From Haloarcula sp. H-GB4 (GTDB lineage: Archaea; Halobacteriota; Halobacteria; Halobacteriales; Haloarculaceae): a DNA stretch of 64,000 bases. The DNA lies in contig NZ_JAVDDX010000002.1 in assembly GCF_030848575.1 (NCBI RefSeq), forward strand, positions 248,001 to 312,000, written 5' to 3'. The translations under genes were made by a program, and so were the position numbers. The notes below the pieces were generated by a model. That model made no database searches. It was not told where the DNA came from and saw only the letters and a list, made by a program, of their open reading frames with translations. Positions 5,719 through 25,577 of this stretch are shown here, piece by piece. Each line of letters starts with the position of its first letter. Positions within the stretch are counted from its first letter, which is position 1.

Positions 5719-5793
5719 GGGTTCGTGGTCTAGGTCGGTTATGACACCTCCTTGACATGGAGGAGGCCGGCGGTTCAAATCCGCCCGAACCCA
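5719..5793 (+). tRNA. tRNA-Val(GAC)
   Basis: Acceptor arms GGGTTCG (5719-5725) and CGAACCC (5786-5792) pair fully, with discriminator A at 5793. The anticodon stem CCTCC/GGAGG encloses loop TTGACAT, anticodon GAC (Val). The T arm is GGCGG-TTCAAAT-CCGCC. CCA is not encoded. Its 3' end is the left attachment site of the integrated element that follows. Confidence 0.95.
5780..5793 (+). other. attL core (tRNA-Val 3' end)
   Basis: TCCGCCCGAACCCA, covering the 3' half of the T stem, the acceptor strand and the discriminator base. It is identical to 25564-25577 and diverges immediately on both sides, as expected of a recombination core. The tRNA gene stays intact. Confidence 0.85.
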
Positions 5794-5871: not shown

Positions 5872-5985
5872 GTGAGCCGGACTGTCGAACTCCGGCCGCC
5901 GATTTGCGACTACTGCGGGTGTTTCATCCACGACCGAGACCAGCAGTGTCCGGCTCGTGAGGACGGGAGGCGGTGTTATCCATGA
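5872..5985 (+). CDS. 37-aa zinc-finger protein, first gene of the element
   Basis: GTG 5872 lies about 7 nt after a strong GGAGGTGA site (5858-5866). The product has CDYCGCF near residue 12 and CPAREDGRRC near 26, giving a four-Cys zinc site in a very short acidic/basic protein. Its TGA overlaps the ATG of the primase gene by 4 nt, so the two are probably translated together. A nucleic-acid-binding partner of the replication protein is an inference from position. Confidence 0.65.
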   Translation: MSRTVELRPPICDYCGCFIHDRDQQCPAREDGRRCYP

Positions 5986-8900
5986 CCGCCGAGTGCCATC
6001 TCTGCGGCGGTCCCCCGGACAACATCGACGGCAACAGCTACCTCTGTGACGACTGTCTCGCCCGACTGGAGGGGCGTACCTCGGAGGAAACGACCGAAGC
6101 CGACGTCGACGAGACTGCCCCCTCTACCGTCGGGACGGGTATTCTCCCCACTAACCTCGAAGACCGTGAGCGCTGGATCGCCTGGAAGGAAACCGACGAC
6201 GGGCGAAAGGTCCCCCGGGCCCCATGGGAAACCGGGGGCGACGCGTTCGTCAGTGCCCAGGATTCCGATGTCTGGGTCGACCTCGCCACAGCTGAGGCCT
6301 GGCTCGACAAACTCTCCGGGTTCGACCTCGCGTACAACATTCCCGACAGGGACGACCACGAGACGGACCTCGTGCTCATCGACTACGACGACGCTCGGAA
6401 TCCGGAGACCGGCGACATCCACGCCACTGTTCGCGAGCACATCGACCGTGCCGACAGCTACGCTGACGTCTCGACGAGCGGGACTGGTGTCCACATCCTC
6501 TGTCGCGGCCAGCTGCCCGACGGGGTCAAATCTATCGAGGCAACGCTGCCCGAAGACGAGGCCTTCCCCGACGCCGAAATTGAGGTGTACGACTCTGCCC
6601 GGTTCGTCGCCATGACCGGCACGCACATCGCGTCAACGCCGGCGAAGACGACGCGGTGTCAGCAGTTCATCGACGACCTCGCCGACGACTACACGACCGT
6701 CGCCGAGGGTACGCCCGACGAGCTGATTCAGGAACCGGAGAAGACCGCTGCCGAAATCGCCGACGTCGAGACGACCAGCGACATGCAGGACGTCCTCGAC
6801 GCCATCCAGCACACGGGCCCGCGTGACATCCGCCTGCGGTCAACCGTCACACAGGAACGCTCCGACGGGACGACGTCGATGGATCCCTCCTGGGCCCAGA
6901 GCAAGAGCGGCACGCGCCTCGCTCAGGTCGGCGACAGCTGGGTCTATCGAAAGGGCATGGTCGGCCTTGATGCCCTGCAGGTCGTCGCCCTCGAGGAACG
7001 TATCATCACCACCGAGACAGAGTACCCCAGTGGCGAGGCCTTCTGGCAGGCCGTCGAAGCGCTTCGCGGCCGCGGTGCGCACATCCCCGAGTTTGAACCC
7101 AGCGAAGGTGACATTGACCACACGGCTGTGCTGCCCGATTCGCTGTCGATTGACACGTCACCGCCGACGTGGGACTGGCAGAACCCCGGTCACGACGACA
7201 ATCTCTCGATCGGCGATGCCCGCGCCCGGACGACAGAGAAGGTCGTCGGCGCCTACCAGCGTAACGACCAGGTTCTCATCGAGGCGCTGCCGACGATGGG
7301 CAAGTCCTACGGGTCAATCGCCGCCGCGGCCGAGACCGGCGAGCCCGTGACGGTCCTCACCGGCCGCGGGCGGAAAGAGCAGTACGCCCAGTTCAAGGAG
7401 TGGTGCGAGACCCACGGACTGACGTACAAGGAACTCCCGTCGTTCACCCACGACTGCCCGACAGCCGCCGGTGACCACGGTGAGGAGTGGCGCGAGACTG
7501 TGATGGACTGGTATCGCCGCGGTGCCACGCCGAAGGCCATCCACAAATTCGCCGAGGACGTCCTCGGGAAGCCACTGCCCTGCCAGGTCGACGACGAGGG
7601 CAATCACGTCGGCTGTCAGTACGCGCACCTGTGGAACTTCGACCCCGAGACCGACGGCAGTACCGACCCCGACGAGGATGTCGCGATTGACGTCCTCATC
7701 GGCCACTACACCCACGCCTACAAGGAGAAAGTCACCACCGGGCGGACGGTCGTGTTCGACGAGTTCCCCGACGGGGCCTATGAGACGACGCTTGCCGGCG
7801 ACTGGCTCCAGGGCGCGGTGAGTTACTGGCTGTCCACGGTCGACGCCGTCTCGTTCGACGACTACACCGACCTCATCGAGAACCGCGATGACGACGGACG
7901 GCGAGCCGACGCACTGGCGTGGTTTCTTGACGACAGTGAGGAGGCCCTCGACACAGCCGAGTCGCTGGTGTTCGATGACGACAGCGCTCACGCCGCGGCC
8001 CCACTGGCCGCGTTCGCGATCCTCGCCGGCGACGACCTCGGTAACGGCTTCGAGGCCGCCGACCTGCAGAACGTCGGCGCCGCCACATTCGACCGCGAGA
8101 CGGGGCAGGTGTCGCTGCTCCAGCCACCGAGCCTCGACTACACGAGTGGCATCGTCGCCCTCGACGGGACGCCGACGAAGCGGATGTGGGAGCTCTCGCT
8201 CGGCGTGCGGTTGCATCTCCGGCCTGTCCTCAGCAAACCTGAGCGGAGCGAGTACATCTCTGAGGTCCTGAACCTGAATCTCGTCCGGACGACCGACGCG
8301 GTCAAGCCCTACAACAGTGCTGACCACGTCACCGTCGAACAGGACGCCGCGCTGTTGGAGGGCATCGCCGACGCCCACGGTGAGCGACCGTCGCTCATCA
8401 CCTCTTCGACGGCCGAGGGCGAGTACGACGCTGCCGGAGTGGCCGACCTCGTCGACGAGACGAAACACTACGGGAACGTCCTCGGATCCAACGAGTTCAA
8501 AGAGAGGCGGCTGGGCGCTGTCATCGGGTCGAACCACTACGGCGACCGGTTCATCAAGAAGTGGGGCGCCTACGCCGGCGAGGCTGTCGAGCGCAATGCC
8601 GAGAAAGGCGCCGGCCTCTCCTACACCGGATTCGGTGACCGCGTGCTGACCCACATGCGCGAGCACGACACGCTCCAGGCAGCGATGCGGTTCGGCCGCG
8701 ACGGGAACGGGGCCGTCGTCTACGTCCACACCGACACGCTGCCTGACTGGGTTCCCATCGCCGACGAGGGGCACGTGCTCACCACCTGGAGCGATGGGAT
8801 GCGTCAGGTCGTCGCTGCGGCGGCTGACCTCAAGGAGTGGACGACTGCCGACCTCGCCGCCCATCCCGACGTCGACATCGGCGAGCGGCAGGTCCGAGCC

Positions 8901-9209
8901 CATCTCACGACACTCGCCGAGAACCACGACGTCGTCGCCCGCGAAGCCGAAGGCTGTGCGTTCGTCTGGCGCGACAACGGCCTCCACCGGCTGGGCGACC
9001 ACGGCGAGGTCAAGCTCACGCCCATCGACCTTGATGACCTCAGCAACGAGGAAAGTGCGGAACTCGCGCGTAGTAGTACCTATACGTGGCAGTTCCGCAC
9101 TCCAGTTGAAACGCAGGGGATGCCAACTCCTGACAGGGGTGGTTCGCCCGGGGCGAGCGACAATCACGCCGCGACGGGAGGTGGCCCACCGCCGAATGAG
9201 TCAGACTGA
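5982..9209 (+). CDS. AEP-type primase/polymerase with helicase-like region
   Basis: Likely replication protein of the element, 1075 aa. An N-terminal zinc finger (CHLCG...CDDC, residues 5-27) precedes an archaeo-eukaryotic primase-like domain: VLIDYDD near 130 (acidic metal site), STSGTGVHIL near 164 (SxGxGxH motif) and RFVAMTGTHI near 207. A P-loop-like ALPTMGKSY near 434 and VVFDEF near 589 (Walker B) suggest a helicase or ATPase region. A winged-helix-like segment (residues about 940-1005) and a Gly/Pro-rich tail finish the chain. Start ATG 5982 follows GGGAGGCGG; a GTG 9 nt upstream is possible. Assignment rests on motifs, not on a database match. Confidence 0.7.
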   Translation: MTAECHLCGGPPDNIDGNSYLCDDCLARLEGRTSEETTEADVDETAPSTVGTGILPTNLEDRERWIAWKETDDGRKVPRAPWETGGDAFVSAQDSDVWVDLATAEAWLDKLSGFDLAYNIPDRDDHETDLVLIDYDDARNPETGDIHATVREHIDRADSYADVSTSGTGVHILCRGQLPDGVKSIEATLPEDEAFPDAEIEVYDSARFVAMTGTHIASTPAKTTRCQQFIDDLADDYTTVAEGTPDELIQEPEKTAAEIADVETTSDMQDVLDAIQHTGPRDIRLRSTVTQERSDGTTSMDPSWAQSKSGTRLAQVGDSWVYRKGMVGLDALQVVALEERIITTETEYPSGEAFWQAVEALRGRGAHIPEFEPSEGDIDHTAVLPDSLSIDTSPPTWDWQNPGHDDNLSIGDARARTTEKVVGAYQRNDQVLIEALPTMGKSYGSIAAAAETGEPVTVLTGRGRKEQYAQFKEWCETHGLTYKELPSFTHDCPTAAGDHGEEWRETVMDWYRRGATPKAIHKFAEDVLGKPLPCQVDDEGNHVGCQYAHLWNFDPETDGSTDPDEDVAIDVLIGHYTHAYKEKVTTGRTVVFDEFPDGAYETTLAGDWLQGAVSYWLSTVDAVSFDDYTDLIENRDDDGRRADALAWFLDDSEEALDTAESLVFDDDSAHAAAPLAAFAILAGDDLGNGFEAADLQNVGAATFDRETGQVSLLQPPSLDYTSGIVALDGTPTKRMWELSLGVRLHLRPVLSKPERSEYISEVLNLNLVRTTDAVKPYNSADHVTVEQDAALLEGIADAHGERPSLITSSTAEGEYDAAGVADLVDETKHYGNVLGSNEFKERRLGAVIGSNHYGDRFIKKWGAYAGEAVERNAEKGAGLSYTGFGDRVLTHMREHDTLQAAMRFGRDGNGAVVYVHTDTLPDWVPIADEGHVLTTWSDGMRQVVAAAADLKEWTTADLAAHPDVDIGERQVRAHLTTLAENHDVVAREAEGCAFVWRDNGLHRLGDHGEVKLTPIDLDDLSNEESAELARSSTYTWQFRTPVETQGMPTPDRGGSPGASDNHAATGGGPPPNESD

Positions 9210-9479: not shown

Positions 9480-9713
9480 ATGAGCACACTCGTCCCAAAG
9501 CGGGTCAAGGAGACCCCGGCCAGCGCACGGCTGGTCTACACCGCCCTCGACGTGAACGGGCCGCTGGAAAAGGAGGCCCTGATCGACGAGACGGGCATCG
9601 CGCGGCGCACCGTCAACAGCGCCCTTGCTGCACTTCGCGAGCGGGGGCTCGTCGAGGCGCGCGATCACCCGGTCGATCACCGGCGGCGACTGTACGCCGC
9701 CGCGGACCAATGA
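9480..9713 (+). CDS. winged-helix regulator (MarR/ArsR-like), 77 aa
   Basis: A compact winged helix-turn-helix: ARLVYTALDVNGPLEKEAL (helices 1-2), then IARRTVNSALAALRERGLV (recognition helix, residues about 40-58) and a basic wing DHPVDHRRRLYAA. The ATG follows GAGGAG by 5 nt. A likely transcription regulator of the element. Two dyad repeats just upstream (9417-9468) are candidate operators. Confidence 0.75.
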   Translation: MSTLVPKRVKETPASARLVYTALDVNGPLEKEALIDETGIARRTVNSALAALRERGLVEARDHPVDHRRRLYAAADQ

Positions 9714-9844
9714 CTACCCGCCACGACGCCGGTTCGAAGCCGAGGGCAAGCCGTGGCCAAGAGCGCATAAATTACACCAGGAGTGCTCGATCGTGCCGAT
9801 TTCGACCGAATGGCCGAGAAAAACGCCGGGGTGATCACCTATGA
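9710..9844 (+). CDS. possible 44-aa basic protein bridging two genes
   Basis: The ATG overlaps the stop of the winged-helix gene (ATGA) and its TGA overlaps the ATG of the next gene, so the frame exactly bridges the two. The predicted protein is very Arg-rich (MTTRHDAGSKPRASRGQ start), unusual in a halophile. A TATA-like CATAAATTA (about 9766-9774) sits inside it. The double overlap may be coincidence; the interval could equally be a promoter for the operon starting at 9841. Confidence 0.25.
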   Translation: MTTRHDAGSKPRASRGQERINYTRSARSCRFRPNGREKRRGDHL

Positions 9845-10137
9845 CCGATAACGCGAGCGCCCACGCCCGCGAAGCGGACGACGCCGGCGACTACGATGAC
9901 CTGCTCGCGACCCTCGACATGCTGGAAAGCGAGACCCTCCGGAAAGTTGAAAACGGCCGTGTGTACGACGCCAAGAACGAACGGGTGCGCATCAAGTGGA
10001 TCCGCATCGCGAAGGACGTCATTGCGGAGAAGAGAAAAGTCATGGCCGACCGCGATCTCCAAGAGTTGAGCGAGCGCATCGAGCAACTCGAAGAGCGTTC
10101 CGACGATCCCACCGGATCCAACAGGGGGCTGCCATGA
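9841..10137 (+). CDS. 98-aa helical protein heading the paralog operon
   Basis: Acidic, predicted mostly helical; DLLATLDMLESETLRKVENG (residues 20-39) and DLQELSERIEQLEERSDD (about 75-92) look like coiled-coil segments. A long complementary site GGGGTGATCACC precedes the ATG, and a TATA-like CATAAATTA lies about 70 nt upstream, so this may be the first gene of the 9841-15185 transcript. Its stop overlaps the first paralog by 4 nt. Family unknown. Confidence 0.6.
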   Translation: MTDNASAHAREADDAGDYDDLLATLDMLESETLRKVENGRVYDAKNERVRIKWIRIAKDVIAEKRKVMADRDLQELSERIEQLEERSDDPTGSNRGLP

Positions 10138-10349
10138 GACGGAGTAAACGTGAGCTGCATCGAGCATTGGACAACCTCACTGAGGATTCAGACAGTCCCG
10201 AGCCCAGTGAGGTTGTCTGGGAGGACGAGGCGGGCGAGTGGTACGATAGTCCCGACAAAGAGGGGAAGCCACTCGACCCCGACGCCGTCGATCCGGCGAT
10301 AGTCATGAGCGAAACCATCGTCGAGACTGACTGGGAACTCAACCAATGA
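10134..10349 (+). CDS. tandem paralog 1 of 6 (RRSKREL family), 71 aa
   Basis: Begins MRRSKRELHRALDNL, the shared N-terminal signature (M-T-R-[RK]-S-[KR]-R-E-[LI]-x-x-x-[VLI]-[DE]-x-L) of the six genes here, but lacks the Thr at position 2. The rest is acidic (VVWEDEAGEWYDSP; ends VETDWELNQ) and is the most divergent of the set. ATGA overlaps with the genes on both sides. Function unknown. Confidence 0.65.
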   Translation: MRRSKRELHRALDNLTEDSDSPEPSEVVWEDEAGEWYDSPDKEGKPLDPDAVDPAIVMSETIVETDWELNQ

Positions 10350-10573
10350 CTCGAAAAAGCAAGCGGGAGATCGAACGTAGGATTGAGGACCTCTCAGACT
10401 CTGAGGAAAGCCGGTTTAAGGACGTTTGGATAGCGAGCGCGAAGGATGAGGAGAAGCGCACCGAGCAAGAACAGCGGATGCTCGATGTCTTCGAGGACCA
10501 GGAAAATCTCTCAGATTGTGAACTCGCACGCTACCCGTGGTTTGGAACTGGAAGACATCATGACTCGACGTAG
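10346..10573 (+). CDS. tandem paralog 2 of 6, 75 aa
   Basis: N-terminus MTRKSKREIERRIEDL. The body (FKDVWIASAKDEEKRTEQEQ, then RMLDVFED) aligns with paralog 3 over the whole length, including a Lys-Asp, a Thr and a terminal [ER]RxL helix, so these are true full-length paralogs and not only a shared leader. The start overlaps paralog 1 by 4 nt; the end runs 14 nt into paralog 3. Confidence 0.65.
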   Translation: MTRKSKREIERRIEDLSDSEESRFKDVWIASAKDEEKRTEQEQRMLDVFEDQENLSDCELARYPWFGTGRHHDST

Positions 10574-10766
10574 TAGACGCGAACTCGAACGCGCCGTCGA
10601 CGAGTTGGATGGCCAGAGATCGTTCACCGTCGCTGACTTCATGTGGGCCGATTTGAAGGACTACCACGGCGGTCGGCTCACGCCAGCTGAGCGGCGGTTA
10701 CTCCAGGATCCAGAGGACCACCTTACGCCGGCAGCACAGACGCAGGTGGATACCGAAGAACGATGA
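10560..10766 (+). CDS. tandem paralog 3 of 6, 68 aa
   Basis: N-terminus MTRRSRRELERAVDEL followed by a hinge (DGQRS) and a second part with ADFMWADLKDYHGG and LTPAERRLL. The YxGG turn recurs in paralog 5 (EYNGG). It overlaps paralog 2 by 14 nt, the largest overlap in the series, and paralog 4 by 4 nt. Strongly charged, no Cys, no membrane segment. Function unknown. Confidence 0.65.
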   Translation: MTRRSRRELERAVDELDGQRSFTVADFMWADLKDYHGGRLTPAERRLLQDPEDHLTPAAQTQVDTEER

Positions 10767-10960
10767 CACGCAAGAGTAAGCGCGAATTGGAGCGCGCGGT
10801 TGACGACCTGCAATCGGCCGGCGGGGATACGATCGACTCGCAAGCCGAGGCCTACGCCGCACTTGTCGCGGCGGCCTGCGGGCATTCATCACATAGACCG
10901 GCCGAACTCGAGTGCGCATTCGAGCGCTGGCCGTCCGTCGCGGAGGTGCCTTCTCAATGA
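10763..10960 (+). CDS. tandem paralog 4 of 6, 65 aa
   Basis: N-terminus MTRKSKRELERAVDDL, then an Ala-rich helical body (EAYAALVAAACGHSSH) with a Cys/His cluster not seen in the other copies, and a short tail (FERWPSVAEVPSQ). Four-nt overlaps with both neighbours. The conserved basic leader and variable body are the pattern of the whole array. Confidence 0.65.
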   Translation: MTRKSKRELERAVDDLQSAGGDTIDSQAEAYAALVAAACGHSSHRPAELECAFERWPSVAEVPSQ

Positions 10961-11175
10961 CCCGACGCTCGAAACGCGAGTTGTCGAGTGCTGTCGATGC
11001 CCTTGACGACGGTGCCGACCCCCCGTTAGCGGGGCTGATTACAGTCATCTCGACGGAATACAACGGCGGTTCAGTCGAGTTCCTGAACGACGGGCCCGGC
11101 GCCGTCCTCATCAACGGCGAGCGACACCGTCTCACCGAGACCGCCCGCAACAAGCTCTTGGAGGGGTCGACGTGA
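10957..11175 (+). CDS. tandem paralog 5 of 6, 72 aa
   Basis: N-terminus MTRRSKRELSSAVDAL. The body looks beta-rich (STEYNGGSVEFLNDG, AVLINGERHRL) and closes with a helix (TETARNKLLEG). It resembles paralog 6 in this second half. The start codon overlaps the stop of paralog 4; an in-frame upstream extension is inside paralog 4 and is not needed. Ends overlapping the GTG of paralog 6. Confidence 0.65.
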   Translation: MTRRSKRELSSAVDALDDGADPPLAGLITVISTEYNGGSVEFLNDGPGAVLINGERHRLTETARNKLLEGST

Positions 11176-11363
11176 CCCGGCGTAGCAAACGGGAGTTGTC
11201 ACGTGCTATCGACGACCTCGATGGCCAGTCGTTGCCTGAGACCTCGATAGCCGAACTGCTCTCGGCTGACAACGTGGAGCATCGGGGCGACGTCGCCGCA
11301 TATGTCGACGGGCAACTCGTTGCGATTCCGTCAGCTGTCGCGGAGGTGCTCTTTAGCCGATGA
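11172..11363 (+). CDS. tandem paralog 6 of 6, 63 aa
   Basis: GTG start overlapping the stop of paralog 5. N-terminus MTRRSKRELSRAIDDL, then IAELLSADNVEHRGD and VAAYVDGQLVAIPSAVAEVL, a short version of the beta-plus-helix second half of paralog 5. Its TGA overlaps an ATG (11360) that opens a 19-codon frame ending at 11419, which may serve only to pass ribosomes to the next gene. Confidence 0.65.
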   Translation: MTRRSKRELSRAIDDLDGQSLPETSIAELLSADNVEHRGDVAAYVDGQLVAIPSAVAEVLFSR

Positions 11364-11837: not shown

Positions 11838-14800
11838 ATGGTATTCGATGAACTTGAGATCGGCGCGGAGATTGCGACGAAGGGCTTCACCAGCGGCGTT
11901 GACCGGATGGAGTCCGCCTCATCGGACCTTGATCGGGCGGCCAAGGAGTTGTCCACGTCCGCCCAGCGGGCTGCCGAAGGCCTAGACGATATCGGGGCCG
12001 AAGCCGTCTCGACGGCGGCGGCCACGTCGACCGCGGAATCCCGCACGGACGCACTCGGTGACGAGCTCACAGGGACGGCACGGCAGGCATCCGTAGCCGC
12101 GAACCGCCTCGACGCAGTCGGCGACGAGATGACCGAGCAGGCGGCGAAAGCGTCGACGGCCGCCACCGCCACGTCGGGATACGCTGGAACCACATCAACG
12201 GCTGCCCTCGCGTCGGGAGGGCTGGCAACGGCGATGTCGGCCTCACTCGTCCCGGCCTTCGCAAGTCTCGCCTCTATTGCCGGCCCGCTGGTGGCGACAC
12301 TCGGCGGCGTCGCGGCCGCGGCTGGCAGTCTGGCGACAGCCTTTAGCACCGTCATCGGGACGGGCGTCCTCGCGTGGGGCGACAAGCTAGCGACCCAGAA
12401 CAGCAAACGCCTCCAGCAGATCAACCGGCAGATCACTGAGTTGGAGGCGCTGGAAGACACCGAAAAGGGGCTGACCAAGGCCCAGCAACAGCAGCTCCAG
12501 TCGCTGAAAGACCAGCAGGACAAACTCGAAGATGCGACCGGCGCGGCGGGGGCACTCTCCCGTCGGTTCGGGAAGCTCAAAGACCGCATCGCCGAGATCC
12601 TCATCCCGCTGGGTCAGCAGTTCATCCCGTTGATCGAGGACGCTGTCGGTGCACTCCCCACCCTCGTCCAACGGATGGTCGACAGCATCGGCTCGCTGTC
12701 TGCATTCCATGACGAACTCCGACGACTCGGTGGCATTGCCATGGACGTAATTCCGTCGTTGACGGGCCTCGTCTTTGACTTCGCTCGGGCCGCGCTACCG
12801 GCCTTCCGTGACTTCGTCGGCCTCATCCGCTCGCGAGCGGGGCCGGCGCTGGACCGCATCGGGACAGTCGCGGCCGAAACCGGCCCTGAGTTCAAGGCGC
12901 TGGCGGGGGCCGTCCTCGGTCTTCTCGGCCCGATCACAACGCTGGGCGTGACGGCGACCAACACGCTCGTGCCGATCTTCACGGACATCATCGAGACAAT
13001 TACTGACGCCGTCTCGTGGTTCAACGAGCTGCCGGCCCCGATCCGCCGCGTTGCCGTCGTCGTCGGAACGCTCACGCCGGCTGTGACGGGGGCCGTGACA
13101 GCTATTGCTGGCCTCGCCTCGGCCGGGTCGGCAGTGACGGGCGCACTCACTGCTGTGAGTGCCGCTATTGCTGGGCTGTCGGCCCCGATCCTCGCGGCCG
13201 GAACAGCGGTCGCTGGCCTCGCAGTCGCCTTCAAGACGAATTTCCTGGGTATCCGCGACAGCGTCATGCGCTTGGTCGATGTGTTCCAGCAGCAGTTCGC
13301 CCCCGCGCTTGAGCAAGCCAGAGAGTTGGCACAGACGATCACGCGGACGATCCGCAACGTCTGGGCCAAACGCGGTGACGAAATCATGTCCCAGTTGCGG
13401 GATATCATCCAGCTCATCGAAGTCAGTCTGGCGGACGCGATGCGGTTCATCGCCCCGATTGTCAAAACGGTGTTGAGCGGACTCACCGCGCTCTGGAAAG
13501 AGCACGGCGAAGCAGTCTATACTGCGGTCGCTGACCTCCTTCTGGGGGCGCTGAACCTCTTGGAGACAGGCATCCGAAACGCCCGGACGGCCGTCAATAC
13601 GATTCTGGCGGCGTTGCGAGGCGACTGGGACACCGCCTTCCAAGGGATCAAGACCATCGTCACGCGGACGCTGGGGGCCATCGAATCGTTCCTGACGGGG
13701 CCGGCGAGGTCGTTCCTCACGACGGCCTGGAACGTCCTGACCGATCTCGCCGGCGAGGCCTGGCAGGCGCTGAAGACGACCATCATCGGCGACGGTGGCA
13801 GTGGCGGCATCGTCGGTGGCCTCATCACCAGCGTCAAGGACTTCCTGGCGGGTGGCGGGAAATCGCTCATCGATCAGGGCTGGACAGTCCTGTTGGAGGC
13901 CAGCGAGCAGGTCGTCACGACGTTCTTCACACTCGCAGGCCGGCTGGGGACCGTCATCAAGGACTTCATCGGCGCGGTGAAAGAATACTTCACCAGCGGG
14001 CAGGCGCTGACCGATCTCAAGGCCGGCGCGGAGGCACTGGGCACGGGCATCCGCACGGTCTTCCTCACTTGGTTCAACATCAACAAGAAACTCGGCCAGG
14101 TCATCAAGGACTTCATCGGTGCGGTGTATGATTACATTGCCACCGGCCAGGCACTGACGGACCTGAAAGAGGCGTTCGGCCTCCTCGGGCAAGGCGTGCT
14201 CGCCGTCGTCAAGACGTGGTTCAACATCAACCAGAAAATCGGGCAGGTTGTCAAGGACTTCATTGGCGACCTCTATGATTACATCGCGACCGGACAGGCA
14301 CTGTCGGACATGGAGAAGGCGTTTGGCATCCTGACCGATGCGATCATGGGCGTTTTCGAGTCGTTCGTCAAGGGTCTGTTCTACGGGTCGCTTATCAAGG
14401 ACCTGTTCGACGATATCGCCAGCTACGTCGGCGAGGGTGGCGACGGCTTCACCACCATCACCGGCGCGTTCGATGCGGTGGTTGGTGCGCTCACCTCCCT
14501 CTTCGAGGGATTCAAGAAGGCGATTGTTGGCGAGGGCGGGTCGGGCGGCCTCGTCGGGACGCTCGCTAGCGGCATCGAGGGCACGCTGGGGAGTATCGAT
14601 GTCTCCGGCGTCAAATCAACGCTGCAGGGCGTCATCGACAAAGCGGCGAAGGCTATCAGCAAAATCAAAGAGGCGACGGGGATGTCGATTGATAGCGGCG
14701 AGAGTGATGGTGAGGACGGCGGTGAGGAAGACGATGAAGGTGACGACGGCGGGAGTAGCCGCGACACAGACGTGTCGCCAAGCAACCCATCGCCGGACTA

Positions 14801-15185
14801 TAGCAATGGTGGCGATACCGATGTGTCGCCAGATATGCCAGCGCCTGGGTCTGGCGAAAGTGGTGATACGGTCGGCGGGGCACCCGTCAACGAAACGAGA
14901 GGCGGCGGCACAATCCCCGGCTTCGCCGAGGGCGGATACGTCACCGGCCCGACGGCGGCGATGGTCGGTGAGGGCAACGATGACGAGTTCGTCACACCTC
15001 GAAGCACGATGGAGCGCATCCTCGCTCGGGTCGCCGAGGAATCAATGGGCAGCGCTGGCGACGGTGGCGACACCTACCACTTCGACATTGATGTCGACGG
15101 CAGTAGCGACATGAGTGAACGCGAACTCACTCGGGTTGTCAAGCAAGACTTGGCCCGCGAACTTCAGCGACTCAGCACGCGATAA
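11838..15185 (+). CDS. tail tape-measure-like protein, 1115 aa
   Basis: Layout is that of phage tape-measure proteins: an N-terminal heptad/Ala-rich coil (residues 1-125), a long hydrophobic segment (about 128-185), a Gln-rich coil (about 195-235), more Ala/Gly hydrophobic helices (about 405-470), and a C-terminal GFAEGGYVTGPTAAMVGEG motif near 1030 typical of the family. Three 49-aa repeats (147-bp period, starting at 13944, 14091 and 14238) carry [LI]GxV[IV]KDFIG and GQAL. A Gly/Asp/Ser linker with two TDVSP motifs lies near 955-1010. In the family, repeat number sets tail length. No other tail or head gene is recognisable in the element. Confidence 0.75.
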   Translation: MVFDELEIGAEIATKGFTSGVDRMESASSDLDRAAKELSTSAQRAAEGLDDIGAEAVSTAAATSTAESRTDALGDELTGTARQASVAANRLDAVGDEMTEQAAKASTAATATSGYAGTTSTAALASGGLATAMSASLVPAFASLASIAGPLVATLGGVAAAAGSLATAFSTVIGTGVLAWGDKLATQNSKRLQQINRQITELEALEDTEKGLTKAQQQQLQSLKDQQDKLEDATGAAGALSRRFGKLKDRIAEILIPLGQQFIPLIEDAVGALPTLVQRMVDSIGSLSAFHDELRRLGGIAMDVIPSLTGLVFDFARAALPAFRDFVGLIRSRAGPALDRIGTVAAETGPEFKALAGAVLGLLGPITTLGVTATNTLVPIFTDIIETITDAVSWFNELPAPIRRVAVVVGTLTPAVTGAVTAIAGLASAGSAVTGALTAVSAAIAGLSAPILAAGTAVAGLAVAFKTNFLGIRDSVMRLVDVFQQQFAPALEQARELAQTITRTIRNVWAKRGDEIMSQLRDIIQLIEVSLADAMRFIAPIVKTVLSGLTALWKEHGEAVYTAVADLLLGALNLLETGIRNARTAVNTILAALRGDWDTAFQGIKTIVTRTLGAIESFLTGPARSFLTTAWNVLTDLAGEAWQALKTTIIGDGGSGGIVGGLITSVKDFLAGGGKSLIDQGWTVLLEASEQVVTTFFTLAGRLGTVIKDFIGAVKEYFTSGQALTDLKAGAEALGTGIRTVFLTWFNINKKLGQVIKDFIGAVYDYIATGQALTDLKEAFGLLGQGVLAVVKTWFNINQKIGQVVKDFIGDLYDYIATGQALSDMEKAFGILTDAIMGVFESFVKGLFYGSLIKDLFDDIASYVGEGGDGFTTITGAFDAVVGALTSLFEGFKKAIVGEGGSGGLVGTLASGIEGTLGSIDVSGVKSTLQGVIDKAAKAISKIKEATGMSIDSGESDGEDGGEEDDEGDDGGSSRDTDVSPSNPSPDYSNGGDTDVSPDMPAPGSGESGDTVGGAPVNETRGGGTIPGFAEGGYVTGPTAAMVGEGNDDEFVTPRSTMERILARVAEESMGSAGDGGDTYHFDIDVDGSSDMSERELTRVVKQDLARELQRLSTR
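13944..14370 (+). repeat. three 147-bp in-frame repeats in the tape-measure gene
   Basis: Units start at 13944, 14091 and 14238. Each encodes 49 residues beginning LGTVIKDFIG, LGQVIKDFIG or IGQVVKDFIG, with GQAL at about unit position 19; the first two end in TWFNIN. Units 2 and 3 are closest to each other. Whole-codon duplication keeps the frame. Confidence 0.75.
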
Positions 15186-15276: not shown

Positions 15277-15432
15277 GTGCGAGCGGACTCGGCGGTAAAT
15301 TAAGAGGGTTCTGGTCCGGCATAAGGAGCGCGTTTCACACGTCCCTGATGATAGTCATTCAACGAGGGGTGGGACACTCGAAAGAATGTCAATGCACCTA
15401 TGTTTTAACTACTATCTCTTTGAAATTTGTGT

Positions 15433-16872
15433 ATGTCTTTCACAGATCGCGTGCCATTGATGAAGCCGGGGGCAACGAAGCGCAATATTGCGTTGGGACT
15501 GATCTATGCTCTCTGTTTGCTGGTTATTTATCCGCTCCTGCCTTTCATCATCGGGATTATGGTGTGGGGAAACTGGTTGGGGACCGCGGAACGACTCAAC
15601 CTACTCCCGGGCATCAGCTCGGCTGGAGGATTCAAGGCTGGTGGAGTCGCGTTCGTCTACTTGTTCGTTCTCGTGGCGATAATCGGCGGTGTTTCTCCAG
15701 TCCCAGCCGACGGGACTACTGATAGCCAAACGACCATCGATTCACAGTCTGGCAGTGGGTCGCCTGGAACAGCAACAGCCACACCAACCGAGACGCTGAC
15801 GGCATCAACATCAGTGCCGACAGCCACGGCAACACCGACAGAAGAAGCGTCTCCAGTGACCTCATCGCCTGCTCCAGCAACGACGACACAGCCAACGGAG
15901 ACCGAAACGGAACTGGCTGAAATATTCGGAGACGAGACGGAAACACACGACACGTCAACCGAGTCCGTGAAGACGCCCACGCCCACACCAGAACCAACTT
16001 CGACACCAGAATCCACACCAACACCTAATCCGGAACCGCGGACTGAATATAGAGTTGCCATCGATCGCATTGTCGATGGTGACACAGTCGAGATTCGATA
16101 CCAGAACGGAACCACAGACACGCTACGATTACTCGGAATCGACACGCCAGAGGTACACGTAGAGACGGAGCCTGCCGAATGGGAGGGAATACCTGTCACT
16201 GATGGCGGGCGCGATCACCTGCGAGACTGGGGGCACAAAGCCAGCGAATACGCACGGGCAGAACTCGAAATCGGGGAGGAAGTCCGGATCGTTATTGACG
16301 ACGAAGCCGACCGCCGCGGCAGTTACGGACGGCTGCTTGTGTACGTGTATGATGATGGCGAGTTGTTCAATCTGGAATTAATTAATCAGGGGTATGCGCG
16401 ATTCTACGACACGACATTCGATAAGCGACCGCAGTTCCAGTCCGCCGAATCCGACGCCCAAGAGAATGATGTCGGTGTGTGGGACTATGGACAGGCGACG
16501 CCCACGGAAACGCCGACACCAACTCCTGTCCCAGATGGTGGGAGTGGGTTAGTAGTGAGTGAAATCCACGAAGACGCCGAGGGGAACGATCACGAGAACC
16601 TGAACGACGAGTATGTCACCTTCAAAAACACTGGTGATGAGACGCTGTCTATGGGTGAATGGACGGTCAGCGACGAAGCTGACCACGTCTACACTGTCCC
16701 GAACGGGTTCGAACTGGAACCGGGTGCTACCGTCACGCTCTATACTGGCGAAGGATCAAACACCGAGTCAGAACTGTACTGGAACGCCAGCGGCGCAGTC
16801 TGGAATAACGGTGGCGACACGATCATAGTTGAAGACGAAAACAGCGAAACGGTCCTTGAACGGTCCTATTGA
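15433..16872 (+). CDS. membrane-anchored thermonuclease with lamin-tail domain
   Basis: 479 aa. Two N-terminal membrane segments (about residues 20-50 and 72-92) are followed by a Thr/Pro/Ser-rich linker (95-203), a staphylococcal-nuclease domain (about 205-350) and a C-terminal lamin-tail domain (about 372-479). Nuclease signatures: RIVDGDTVEI, LRLLGIDTPE and RGSYGRLLVYVY, giving the Arg-Glu-Arg catalytic set. The linker suggests the nuclease sits outside the membrane, so it may cut extracellular or incoming DNA. AT-richer than the replication block. ATG 15433 lies about 30 nt after a TATA-like element, so the mRNA may be nearly leaderless. Confidence 0.8.
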   Translation: MSFTDRVPLMKPGATKRNIALGLIYALCLLVIYPLLPFIIGIMVWGNWLGTAERLNLLPGISSAGGFKAGGVAFVYLFVLVAIIGGVSPVPADGTTDSQTTIDSQSGSGSPGTATATPTETLTASTSVPTATATPTEEASPVTSSPAPATTTQPTETETELAEIFGDETETHDTSTESVKTPTPTPEPTSTPESTPTPNPEPRTEYRVAIDRIVDGDTVEIRYQNGTTDTLRLLGIDTPEVHVETEPAEWEGIPVTDGGRDHLRDWGHKASEYARAELEIGEEVRIVIDDEADRRGSYGRLLVYVYDDGELFNLELINQGYARFYDTTFDKRPQFQSAESDAQENDVGVWDYGQATPTETPTPTPVPDGGSGLVVSEIHEDAEGNDHENLNDEYVTFKNTGDETLSMGEWTVSDEADHVYTVPNGFELEPGATVTLYTGEGSNTESELYWNASGAVWNNGGDTIIVEDENSETVLERSY

Positions 16873-19841: not shown

Positions 19842-20471
19842 CTATCTAATAGCTCGGTTAGCGATATTCACCGCCGCGTTGCAGTCCCGACAAACCCTCT
19901 CGACCGGACAGTCGTCGGTTGTGCACACAGCGACTTCGTCTCTAAGATGGCAGAGTTGTTCACAGACATGGCAGGCTTGACTGGTATACTTTGGATCGAC
20001 GTAGGACACGGGTAGCCCCGTATCAAGCGCAACCTCGGTGATCGCTTTCTGGAGAGCGGGCAGTAGCCATGCCCCCATCTCGCCGGCAGTGCGACGTTCC
20101 CATAACGATTCTCCAGGGTAGTTGAGGTCTTCGAGCACGAGCAACGGCGTCGCGAACTCACCGGCGTAGCGAACAACCTGAGCCGCGGCGTCACAGAGCA
20201 GCGCCTTCACGGGCGCGTACAGCGCCGCGAAAGCCTGGGCCTCGCCCGTCGTCGTGTCGAACTCCGCGGCCTGAAGCATCCGTATCGTCTCAACGAGGGT
20301 GTTGAGACGCTCCCGCAGTGGCTCGCCGTCGACGATGAATGCATCCTCGGGATCGGCGTCGGCCGGCGCAGCAGCGACGAGCCGCTTCTCGCCGAGGTCA
20401 ATGCCAATGGGCGTCACCGCATCGGGCTCAAGTGACGGGGCCGTCGTAGCGGCGGCGCTGTGGCTACTCAT
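19842..20471 (-). CDS. compact TnpB/OrfB-like RuvC-domain protein, 209 aa
   Basis: Contains the RuvC-like core of IS200/IS605 TnpB: PIGIDLGEKRLVAAA (catalytic Asp near residue 25), LLVLEDLNYPG (catalytic Glu near 114), and a C-terminal CHVCEQL...C..DCNAAVNIANRA with zinc cysteines and the last Asp near 199. So the D-E-D set looks intact. TnpB proteins are usually about 350-450 aa; the N-terminal helical and beta domains that bind guide RNA are absent. It is the last gene of a six-gene operon and has no visible TnpA or IS ends. Probably a domesticated nuclease or regulator. Confidence 0.7.
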   Translation of the reverse strand: MSSHSAAATTAPSLEPDAVTPIGIDLGEKRLVAAAPADADPEDAFIVDGEPLRERLNTLVETIRMLQAAEFDTTTGEAQAFAALYAPVKALLCDAAAQVVRYAGEFATPLLVLEDLNYPGESLWERRTAGEMGAWLLPALQKAITEVALDTGLPVSYVDPKYTSQACHVCEQLCHLRDEVAVCTTDDCPVERVCRDCNAAVNIANRAIR

Positions 20472-20853
20472 CGCTGTTCACCTCGTCGACGTACTCGCGG
20501 GGATCGACACCCTCAGCGTTCGGGTGGTCCGTCAGCTCCCACATGACGCCCCTCGGGATCTGGGGGAGTGGGTCACTCCACGGCTCCACCCCAGCAACTG
20601 GTGCGACCTGTTTCTCGACACGCTCTCGGGCCCGGTTCAGCGCCATCCGCAGAGCGATGACGTGCTCGGGCGTGATCTCACCCGGGTGCTCACCGTCGCC
20701 ACAGAGCGCCATTTCGGCGTCGTGGAACGACTCTTGGAGTTCTAACCGAAGGTTGGTCAGTTCATCACGCAGCAGTTTGCGGCCGACCTGTTCCCAGACC
20801 CTCGCACCCTCATCCTCATCGCCGTCAGCGGCGGTCACAGCACCGTGGGTCAC
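20464..20853 (-). CDS. 129-aa protein of the SWIM operon
   Basis: GTG 20853 overlaps the stop of the upstream gene (GTGA). Charged and helical: VGRKLLRDELTNLRLELQE near residue 24, PEHVIALRMALNRARERVEK near 65, then a Pro/Trp-containing tail. No motif known to me. It overlaps the TnpB-like gene by 8 nt and could be its partner. Confidence 0.6.
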   Translation of the reverse strand: MTHGAVTAADGDEDEGARVWEQVGRKLLRDELTNLRLELQESFHDAEMALCGDGEHPGEITPEHVIALRMALNRARERVEKQVAPVAGVEPWSDPLPQIPRGVMWELTDHPNAEGVDPREYVDEVNSDE

Positions 20854-21305
20854 GCCGACCCCTCCCGCCCCTTCTCGGCGTCGATAAGGTCGAGCCACTG
20901 TTCATGGGCGTCAGGGTCAGCCTTGAGGCCCCTGTAGGCGATATCGGAACCGATCCAAGCCGCGCAGTCACCACAGAGGCGGCCGGTCTTCAGTGCTGGT
21001 AGGTCCGCCTCGCCCAGCGGGTACTCCAGTTCGATGCCGAAGCCCGTGTCGACGGGCGCGCCGCATTGGTCACAGACATCGTCGGGCAGCGCGTGATTTT
21101 GGATGAACTGGCAGACAGCACAGATGTCGGCCTTGAGCGGGGTGATGGGCTGGACCGTCGTTCGGTCGACCATCTCGGCCGGCTTGTTGGCGCCACAGAT
21201 GTCGCACTCGACGGTCGTGGGGCCGTCATCGGGTGAGCCACTGCCGGCGGCCAGCGGCGTCGCGACGAGCGCGGCGGCTTCGAGGAACGCACGACGCTTA
21301 GGCAT
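20850..21305 (-). CDS. multi-zinc-finger protein with Tat-like N-terminus, 151 aa
   Basis: Begins MPKRRAFLEAAALVATPLAA, which looks like a twin-arginine signal, but then has zinc-finger pairs CDICG, CAVC, CDQCG and CGDC (residues about 33-115), which usually act inside the cell. Either the RR stretch is a chance helix, or a metal-binding protein is exported. In the middle of the SWIM operon, overlapping its neighbours by 8 nt and 4 nt. Confidence 0.6.
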   Translation of the reverse strand: MPKRRAFLEAAALVATPLAAGSGSPDDGPTTVECDICGANKPAEMVDRTTVQPITPLKADICAVCQFIQNHALPDDVCDQCGAPVDTGFGIELEYPLGEADLPALKTGRLCGDCAAWIGSDIAYRGLKADPDAHEQWLDLIDAEKGREGSA

Positions 21306-24264: not shown

Positions 24265-24437
24265 ACCACGCTGCCGCCACGATCACGCCGGTCTCCGAAC
24301 CGAGGCAGTGTACCGAACCAGGTTGTGACGTCGCCGAGCTGCTCGCACGCGTCGACCCGGACGCCGATGGAACCGACACGCGGGTGCTGTGCCCGACGCA
24401 TCGAGTCGAATACCTCCGCCAGGTGAGTGACCTATGA
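24261..24437 (+). CDS. 58-aa zinc-binding protein upstream of the integrase
   Basis: Has CTEPGC near residue 17 and LCPTHRVEY near 43, giving a C-x4-C...C-x2-H zinc site. Start and stop overlap the neighbours by 4 nt (ATGA). Translationally coupled to the integrase gene, so a recombination accessory role is plausible but unproven. Confidence 0.6.
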   Translation: MNHAAATITPVSEPRQCTEPGCDVAELLARVDPDADGTDTRVLCPTHRVEYLRQVSDL

Positions 24438-25552
24438 GCAAGACATCCACAGACGACGCACGTAGCTATCGTATCCAGATCGCCGGGACGCCCGACGGCG
24501 GCGACCGCGTGCCCGACCTGACGCCCCGCGAGGCCAGTGAGCGCTGGCTTAGCAAACTTCGGGTTTCAAAGGCTGAGTCGACCGTATCGAGCTACGAATA
24601 TCGCTTGAAACACCTAATAGAGTGGTGTGAGGATCAGGGCATCACAGAGATCAACGAACTCACCGGCTGGGACATCGAGAGCTTCGAGACCCACCGCCGG
24701 GAGCAGGGGCTCTCGCCGCTATCCTTGAACAAGGAACTTGGAACACTCAAAAATTTCCTCGAGTATTGCAGTCGCGTGGAATTAGTCGATGAGAGCCTAC
24801 CAGAGAAGGTCGACCCGCCGGATGTCCCACGGGACGACCACGTCGACGAGACACAGCTTCACGCCGACGACGCCGAGGCGCTGCTGGAGTACTACCGCAA
24901 TAACACGGACGACCGTGTCCGCTACTCACGAGACCACGCACTGCTCGCGCTGGCCTGGTACACGGGCGCCCGCCTCGGTGGGCTTCGGAGTCTTGACGTC
25001 AACGACTACAACGCCGAGGAGGAATACGTCCAGTTCACGCACAACCCCGACCAGGACACGCCGCTGAAGAACGGTCGGGATGGTGAGCGGATCGTCGGTC
25101 TGCCGAGTCACGTCTGTGATATCCTCGATGGGTACATCGCGAAGGAACGCCACGAAGTATTCGATGACTACGGACGCGAACCACTGCTCGCCAGCCAGCT
25201 CGGGCGGGTTTCAAAAAACGCCCTGAGAACGTGGATGTACCTCGCGACAGTTCCTTGCCTACACAGCGATTGCCCACACGGCAACGAGCGACCGACCTGT
25301 GAGTTCGTCGACTACAGCCAAGCCAGCAAGTGCCCGTCGTCACGATCGCCCCATCAGGTCCGGACGGGCTCGATTACGTGGCAATTGAATCGCGGCGTCC
25401 CGCCGCAGGTCGTGGCCGACCGCGTGAACACGAGCGTCCGCGTAATCAAGCGCCACTACGATCAACCGACGAAGCTCGAAGAGATGCGAGAACGCCGGCA
25501 GGACCACCTCGACAGCCTGGATTTCGACGATGAAGGGGGTGAGGGCGAATGA
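24434..25552 (+). CDS. tyrosine recombinase / integrase
   Basis: 372 aa. N-terminal SAM-like core-binding domain (about residues 30-125: WLSKLRVSKAESTVSSYEYR) and a C-terminal catalytic domain. Active-site residues visible: Arg in TGARLGGLRSL near 181, His-x-x-Arg in SPHQVRTGSIT near 307, and Tyr in RVIKRHYDQPT near 342. A Cys/His-rich insert (CLHSDCPHGNERPTC, about 275-290) may bind zinc. The gene ends 11 nt before attR, the usual place for a tRNA-specific integrase; it would catalyse recombination between the 14-bp cores. Confidence 0.95.
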   Translation: MSKTSTDDARSYRIQIAGTPDGGDRVPDLTPREASERWLSKLRVSKAESTVSSYEYRLKHLIEWCEDQGITEINELTGWDIESFETHRREQGLSPLSLNKELGTLKNFLEYCSRVELVDESLPEKVDPPDVPRDDHVDETQLHADDAEALLEYYRNNTDDRVRYSRDHALLALAWYTGARLGGLRSLDVNDYNAEEEYVQFTHNPDQDTPLKNGRDGERIVGLPSHVCDILDGYIAKERHEVFDDYGREPLLASQLGRVSKNALRTWMYLATVPCLHSDCPHGNERPTCEFVDYSQASKCPSSRSPHQVRTGSITWQLNRGVPPQVVADRVNTSVRVIKRHYDQPTKLEEMRERRQDHLDSLDFDDEGGEGE

Positions 25553-25563
25553 GAGAAGCGCTT

Positions 25564-25577
25564 TCCGCCCGAACCCA
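25564..25577 (+). other. attR core
   Basis: Perfect 14-nt copy of the tRNA-Val 3' end (5780-5793), just after the integrase stop. Flanks differ from attL on both sides. Confidence 0.85.

Follow-up and report, generated by a model that had tools for sequence, protein, structure and literature searches.

The six-gene array and its element

Why should one small archaeal element carry six overlapping genes whose products share an N-terminus and differ in the rest? In the window, that is, the whole stretch of 64,000 nucleotides of Haloarcula sp. H-GB4 DNA that was analysed, six chained small open reading frames of 63 to 75 codons each are found at positions 10134-11363, and all six proteins begin with a common basic, amphipathic helix of 16 residues, referred to here as the leader. 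The part that follows the leader is called the body. The array and the genes around it are as follows:

5780-5793, + strand: attL, 3' end of tRNA-Val (TCCGCCCGAACCCA)
5973-9209, + strand: primase/helicase-like replication protein (PHROG DNA primase, 1.8e-22)
9480-9713, + strand: winged-helix protein
9841-10137, + strand: hub gene, 98-aa 'GRVYD' protein; helices 3-38 and 44-87, conserved C-terminal coil DRDLQELSERIEQLEE
10134-10349, + strand: leader protein 1 (71 aa); body class A (GEWYD...VVETPWE), orthologue in Halorubrum halodurans (L054)
10346-10573, + strand: leader protein 2 (75 aa); no clear relative of its body
10560-10766, + strand: leader protein 3 (68 aa); body class B (WADLKxxYGGRLTxxER), orthologues in L126, L127 and L053
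10763-10960, + strand: leader protein 4 (65 aa); no clear relative of its body
10957-11175, + strand: leader protein 5 (72 aa); body a weak member of class D
11172-11363, + strand: leader protein 6 (63 aa), GTG start; body class D
11838-15185, + strand: tail tape-measure-like protein (phrog_58, 7.6e-37)
24434-25552, + strand: tyrosine integrase of the element
25564-25577, + strand: attR, 14-bp repeat of the tRNA-Val end, adjoining the integrase gene

The element is approximately 19.8 kb long and has tRNA-Val as its integration site in a Haloarcula-type genome; the genomes of Haloarcula salina and Haloarcula vallismortis were counted as belonging to the same genus. Like PICI-type satellites, it possesses an integrase with att repeats (14 bp, at tRNA-Val). 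It also carries a replication gene of its own, the primase-like gene, and a tape-measure-like gene. No capsid, portal or large terminase (TerL) gene was recognised among those open reading frames of the element that were scanned, and the tape-measure-like gene (11838-15185) thus belongs to an element in which none of these was detected. A similar combination, in this case with a TerL gene, is present at locus L059, which encodes a GRVYD hub, a tape-measure-like protein and TerL.

An earlier note, which was made from the sequence alone, had described six tandem genes sharing a leader, and these were confirmed. It had further stated that all six proteins begin with M-T; copy 1 starts with MRRSKRE and lacks these residues, while the shared leader itself stands. 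Overlaps are indeed present at every junction and are of the ATGA or GTGA type, with the exception of copies 2 and 3, which overlap by 14 nt. Left out of the note was the upstream hub gene (9841-10137), whose stop codon is overlapped by the start of copy 1. Synonymous sites among the six leaders are close to saturation (pS 0.80, pN 0.25), indicating that selection acts on the peptide and that the DNA itself is not conserved. Recent gene conversion of the leaders is ruled out by the same values. Neither the hub nor any of the six proteins could be convincingly assigned to a family in Pfam, PHROG, NCBIfam or PADLOC (the NCBIfam search covered three of the six), and Foldseek searches with leader protein 6 and with the hub matched nothing significant. 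The AlphaFold model of copy 6 consists of a separate leader helix (residues 6-16) followed by a small body, modelled with modest confidence, of a β-hairpin and a helix.

Leaders and bodies

The earlier note regarded the array as a gene family expanded in place, in which the bodies of copies 2 and 3 and of copies 5 and 6 could still be aligned. In shuffle tests, both pairs scored no better than shuffled sequences (Z 0.6 and 1.3), and the closest body relatives that could be detected are encoded in other elements and species: the body of copy 1 is closest to L054 (Z 12), that of copy 3 to L126 (Z 24) and that of copy 6 to L056 (Z 8), all by shuffle test. The bodies of copies 5 and 6 do share similarity with the same class known from other loci, class D (Z about 4 and about 8, respectively). 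The leader is moreover found on unrelated proteins, namely TerL and a family of ~215 aa, and expansion in place is therefore not supported. Comparison of the bodies suggests that the six in the window may sit on separate ancient branches. Very similar bodies even occur under two different hubs, with a GRVYD hub in L057 and with a helix-turn-helix (HTH) hub in L172.

The leaders follow a different pattern. They are nearer to those of their own-locus neighbours than to those of same-body orthologues (31 versus 12, p=0.005), and they covary modestly with the tail of the hub when the hub core is taken into account (partial Mantel r=0.20, p=0.005, for loci that share ancestry). Greater likeness within a locus would also be expected if the genes had arisen by plain tandem duplication and merely kept a slowly evolving N-terminus without any common partner. 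However, the bodies align across species and not within the array, and the leader occurs on unrelated proteins and is associated with coil-tailed hubs, as described below, which makes this explanation highly improbable.

Distribution of leaders and hubs

Across Halobacteria, about 98 leader proteins were counted at 43 loci by chaining the genes downstream of hubs, with one to six copies per locus; the array in the window is the largest. Leaders and reading frames are kept in many elements, so that the observations named in the earlier note as refuting it were not made. With a profile of the six proteins, arrays were recovered from further genomes of the same family, and a hub gene was present directly 5' of each genuine match (E below about 0.005), encoding either a GRVYD protein or, in genomes G015 and G050, an HTH protein. 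With a profile of the GRVYD protein, hubs were detected in 41 of 391 Halobacteria genomes, and further GRVYD hubs are encoded on plasmids of Halorientalis, Halalkalicoccus, Haladaptatus and Natronococcus. Leader arrays are also present on plasmids of 7-18 kb.

The link between leader and hub was also seen in an unbiased search, which started from a degenerate DNA pattern of the leader. In the 391 genomes, this pattern had 31 matches compared to 4 for the reversed pattern, the genuine ones being gene starts. All 13 genuine loci had a hub directly upstream (10 of the GRVYD type and three of the HTH type), whereas none of six chance matches did. Neither the leader in a phage collection nor the hub in phages gave a match; a search of viral_contigs returned a single hub locus, L059, which is one of some hub loci without an adjoining leader gene. 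In G050, a 55-kb contig and the chromosome carry similar elements (L041-L044: four on the contig, plus a chromosomal copy). The leader arrays of these elements do not contain the same genes, which points to recent gains or losses.

A leader at the N-terminus of TerL

The N-terminus of TerL itself is a leader in L094-096, L104, L106, L108 and L119. In the ten GRVYD-linked TerLs, the alignment starts at query residues 1-7 and about 80-88 residues precede the Walker A motif; in TerL homologs without a GRVYD hub, it begins only at about residue 43 or further on, and Walker A is preceded by about 35-51 residues. The TerLs of isolated haloviruses lack the leader extension. One TerL homolog, in L225, has no clear leader, yet a GRVYD match lies nearby on the other strand. 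The automatic table of the TerL survey (6/5/0/14) understates the link between leader and hub, because leaders escaped the script in L203 and L205, where the wrong open reading frame was picked, and in L209/L211, which have a variant spacing. No portal or capsid gene was recognised beside the leader-bearing TerLs, and these terminases may therefore not package DNA.

TerL is not the only larger protein that starts with a leader; families of ~215 aa (L105, L113, L114, L116, L118) and of ~190-200 aa (L049, L120) do so as well. A leader-bearing family of about 208-325 aa follows either type of hub, often near an Orc1-like gene (L105, L109, L111, L113, L114, L116-L118, L184, L185, L187). In addition, cassettes of an Orc1/Cdc6-like gene, a GRVYD gene and TerL are found on chromosomes or large contigs that show no virion genes (L094-L096, L104, L106, L108, L119); they are possibly satellites or domesticated terminases.

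The hub in the position of TerS

GRVYD proteins, which are ~95 aa in size, lack an N-terminal HTH; the hub in the window is predicted to form a two-helix hairpin ending in a coil (pLDDT 82). The second hub family corresponds to phrog_15023 and shows weak HTH matches. Relatives of both families are encoded directly upstream of TerL: GRVYD genes overlap TerL or immediately precede it in L094-096, L104, L106 and L108 and are located closely 5' of it in L098/L099 and L119, and homologs of the HTH-type hub precede TerL at five loci (L192, L195, L197-L199). Those of the neighbouring TerLs that were tested were confirmed by PHROG (and Pfam). We infer from this position, which is that of the small terminase TerS, that the hub is TerS-like; the position is seen in relatives only, as the window element yielded no TerL. 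Against known TerS families in PHROG, Pfam and NCBIfam, the GRVYD hub had no sequence match and the HTH type only one to phrog_57 at E 0.06, and a PDB profile search with the hub returned matches at chance level. The hub structure matches TerS of phage 44RR with Z 9.1; however, this is one among many matches at Z 9 and does not discriminate because two-helix hairpins are common.

In the HTH family, a short C-terminal coil is present in place of a long tail where leader-type genes follow. The strict leader pattern was found after 8 of 13 coil-tailed HTH-type hubs and after 0 of 17 without a coil (p=2e-4, with patterns that were chosen post hoc and loci that are related by descent). By eye, leader-type genes follow all 13 coil-tailed hubs, which are likewise not independent; the automatic tail and leader patterns miss acidic leader variants (L183-L186, L188). 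For the GRVYD family, the patterns give no contrast because nearly every hub has the tail. The phrog_15023 proteins of the haloviruses phiCh1, phiH, HHTV-2 and HCTV-2 are homologous to the HTH-type hub, but, unlike the leader-linked hubs, have long non-coil tails and are not followed by leader genes.

Many of the loci are plasmids or elements with a primase or Orc1 and without recognised virion genes, and the hub comes after the replication gene. The hub might thus be a DNA-binding or a partition or replication protein of small replicons, the leader proteins replaceable regulators and the link to TerL a later fusion. Such a plasmid function appears rather unlikely to us, as proteins related to either hub family are encoded immediately 5' of TerL and the coil-tail contrast lies inside a family that is otherwise found in the TerS position.

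A probable docking helix for a TerS-like hub

In phages, the site for TerL binding is located on the C-terminus of TerS, and in P22 the first 23 residues of TerL form the contact (PMC9611059). The leader also begins TerL in relatives of the window element, which suggests that it serves as a plug: it could be attached to many different small proteins and would connect them to the packaging-type protein encoded next door. The reading that we consider probable is that the leader is a TerL-type docking helix that putatively binds a TerS-like hub and that has been reused, in elements resembling satellites or plasmids, on numerous small bodies unrelated to one another. We infer physical binding, a satellite lifestyle and functions of the bodies along the following lines. 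The leader helix would pair with the short C-terminal coil of the hub encoded directly upstream (9841-10137 in the window), by analogy with the docking of the TerL N-terminus on the TerS C-terminus in phages, and since the leader fits the TerS-binding role of TerL, the small proteins would dock on the hub as TerL would. The window element, with its own primase and integrase, has this helix on six different small bodies, so that several partners could be bound or swapped on a single hub oligomer. Most likely, a satellite-like element would control DNA packaging in this way: some bodies would link the hub to packaging parts of a helper virus, and others would block the contact between the helper's TerS and TerL.

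It is tempting to speculate, although we hold this only tentatively, that interchangeable small proteins with a TerL-type helix constitute, together with a TerS-like hub to which they attach, a plug-in system that allows archaeal elements without capsids to steer or block DNA packaging by several helper viruses. To our knowledge, no such modular adaptor system is known in any domain of life.

Alternatively, the leader proteins could be decoys, which copy the TerS-binding helix of TerL and block packaging of incoming tailed viruses, thereby providing immunity, while the bodies merely stabilise or regulate them. In favour of decoys, the leader is the N-terminus of GRVYD-linked TerLs, and the PICI proteins Ppi and Rpp act on helper packaging, Rpp via TerS (PMC6739421). 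We judge decoys unlikely, however, because leaders match their own locus best, bodies are kept as distinct classes that pure decoys would not need, and the TerLs of isolated haloviruses are without this helix.

Relation to known systems

The proposed pairing resembles TerS-TerL docking in lambda (gpNu1-gpA), P22 and RcGTA (gp1-gp2), where the C-terminus of a small hub likewise meets the N-terminus of the next gene's product. The TerS of RcGTA has 107 aa, lacks an HTH and uses its C-terminal helix (PMC6854486), and thus shares a size of about 100 aa and the missing HTH with the GRVYD hub. Different from phages, the helix is also present here on up to six small proteins without a recognised enzymatic domain, in elements without a found TerL. 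A high-resolution structure of a phage TerS:TerL complex was still lacking according to a 2022 review (PMC9611059), and the loci described here would offer natural variants of this contact.

The nearest known analogues are the internal proteins of phage T4 and PICI Rpp/Ppi. The latter are also small satellite proteins acting on helper packaging, and Rpp binds the small terminase (PMC6739421). Rpp, however, binds the N-terminal DNA-binding part of the helper TerS and resembles TerS, whereas the leader proteins resemble the TerL N-terminus, form arrays and would pair with the hub of their own element. Virus satellites of haloarchaea are the subject of a 2025 paper cited in PMC13107129.

The earlier note stated that no system with this structure had been described and thereby overlooked the T4 internal proteins, different small proteins that carry a short constant N-terminal capsid-targeting sequence (PMC9026906). 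A constant N-terminus followed by variable bodies is the same design, and the leader could accordingly target small proteins into a virus head. We consider this very unlikely: the T4 tag targets the prohead core, but the elements examined yielded neither the capsid nor the protease genes expected of a T4-type virus and include several plasmids of 7-18 kb with leader arrays, and the leader also starts TerL, which is itself not head cargo. Overall, the interpretation given in the earlier note is partly supported: the present data agree with an invariant docking helix joined to variable partner regions, as proposed there for adaptors, decoys or inhibitors, the likely partner being the C-terminal coil of the upstream TerS-like hub.

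If the docking reading holds, unannotated small haloarchaeal proteins would be united as parts of one system, and archaeal virus-satellite packaging would become open to testing. The combination of leader and coil-tailed hub would provide a sequence tag for finding further cases.

Other genes of the window element

Two further genes were observed in the window. The region 15427-16872 encodes staphylococcal-nuclease and lamin-tail domains and matches the candidate defence family PDLC01096 of PADLOC (8e-26). A TnpB-like gene with a Cas12f1-like TNB domain is located within the element at 19842-20898 and is apparently split into two open reading frames.
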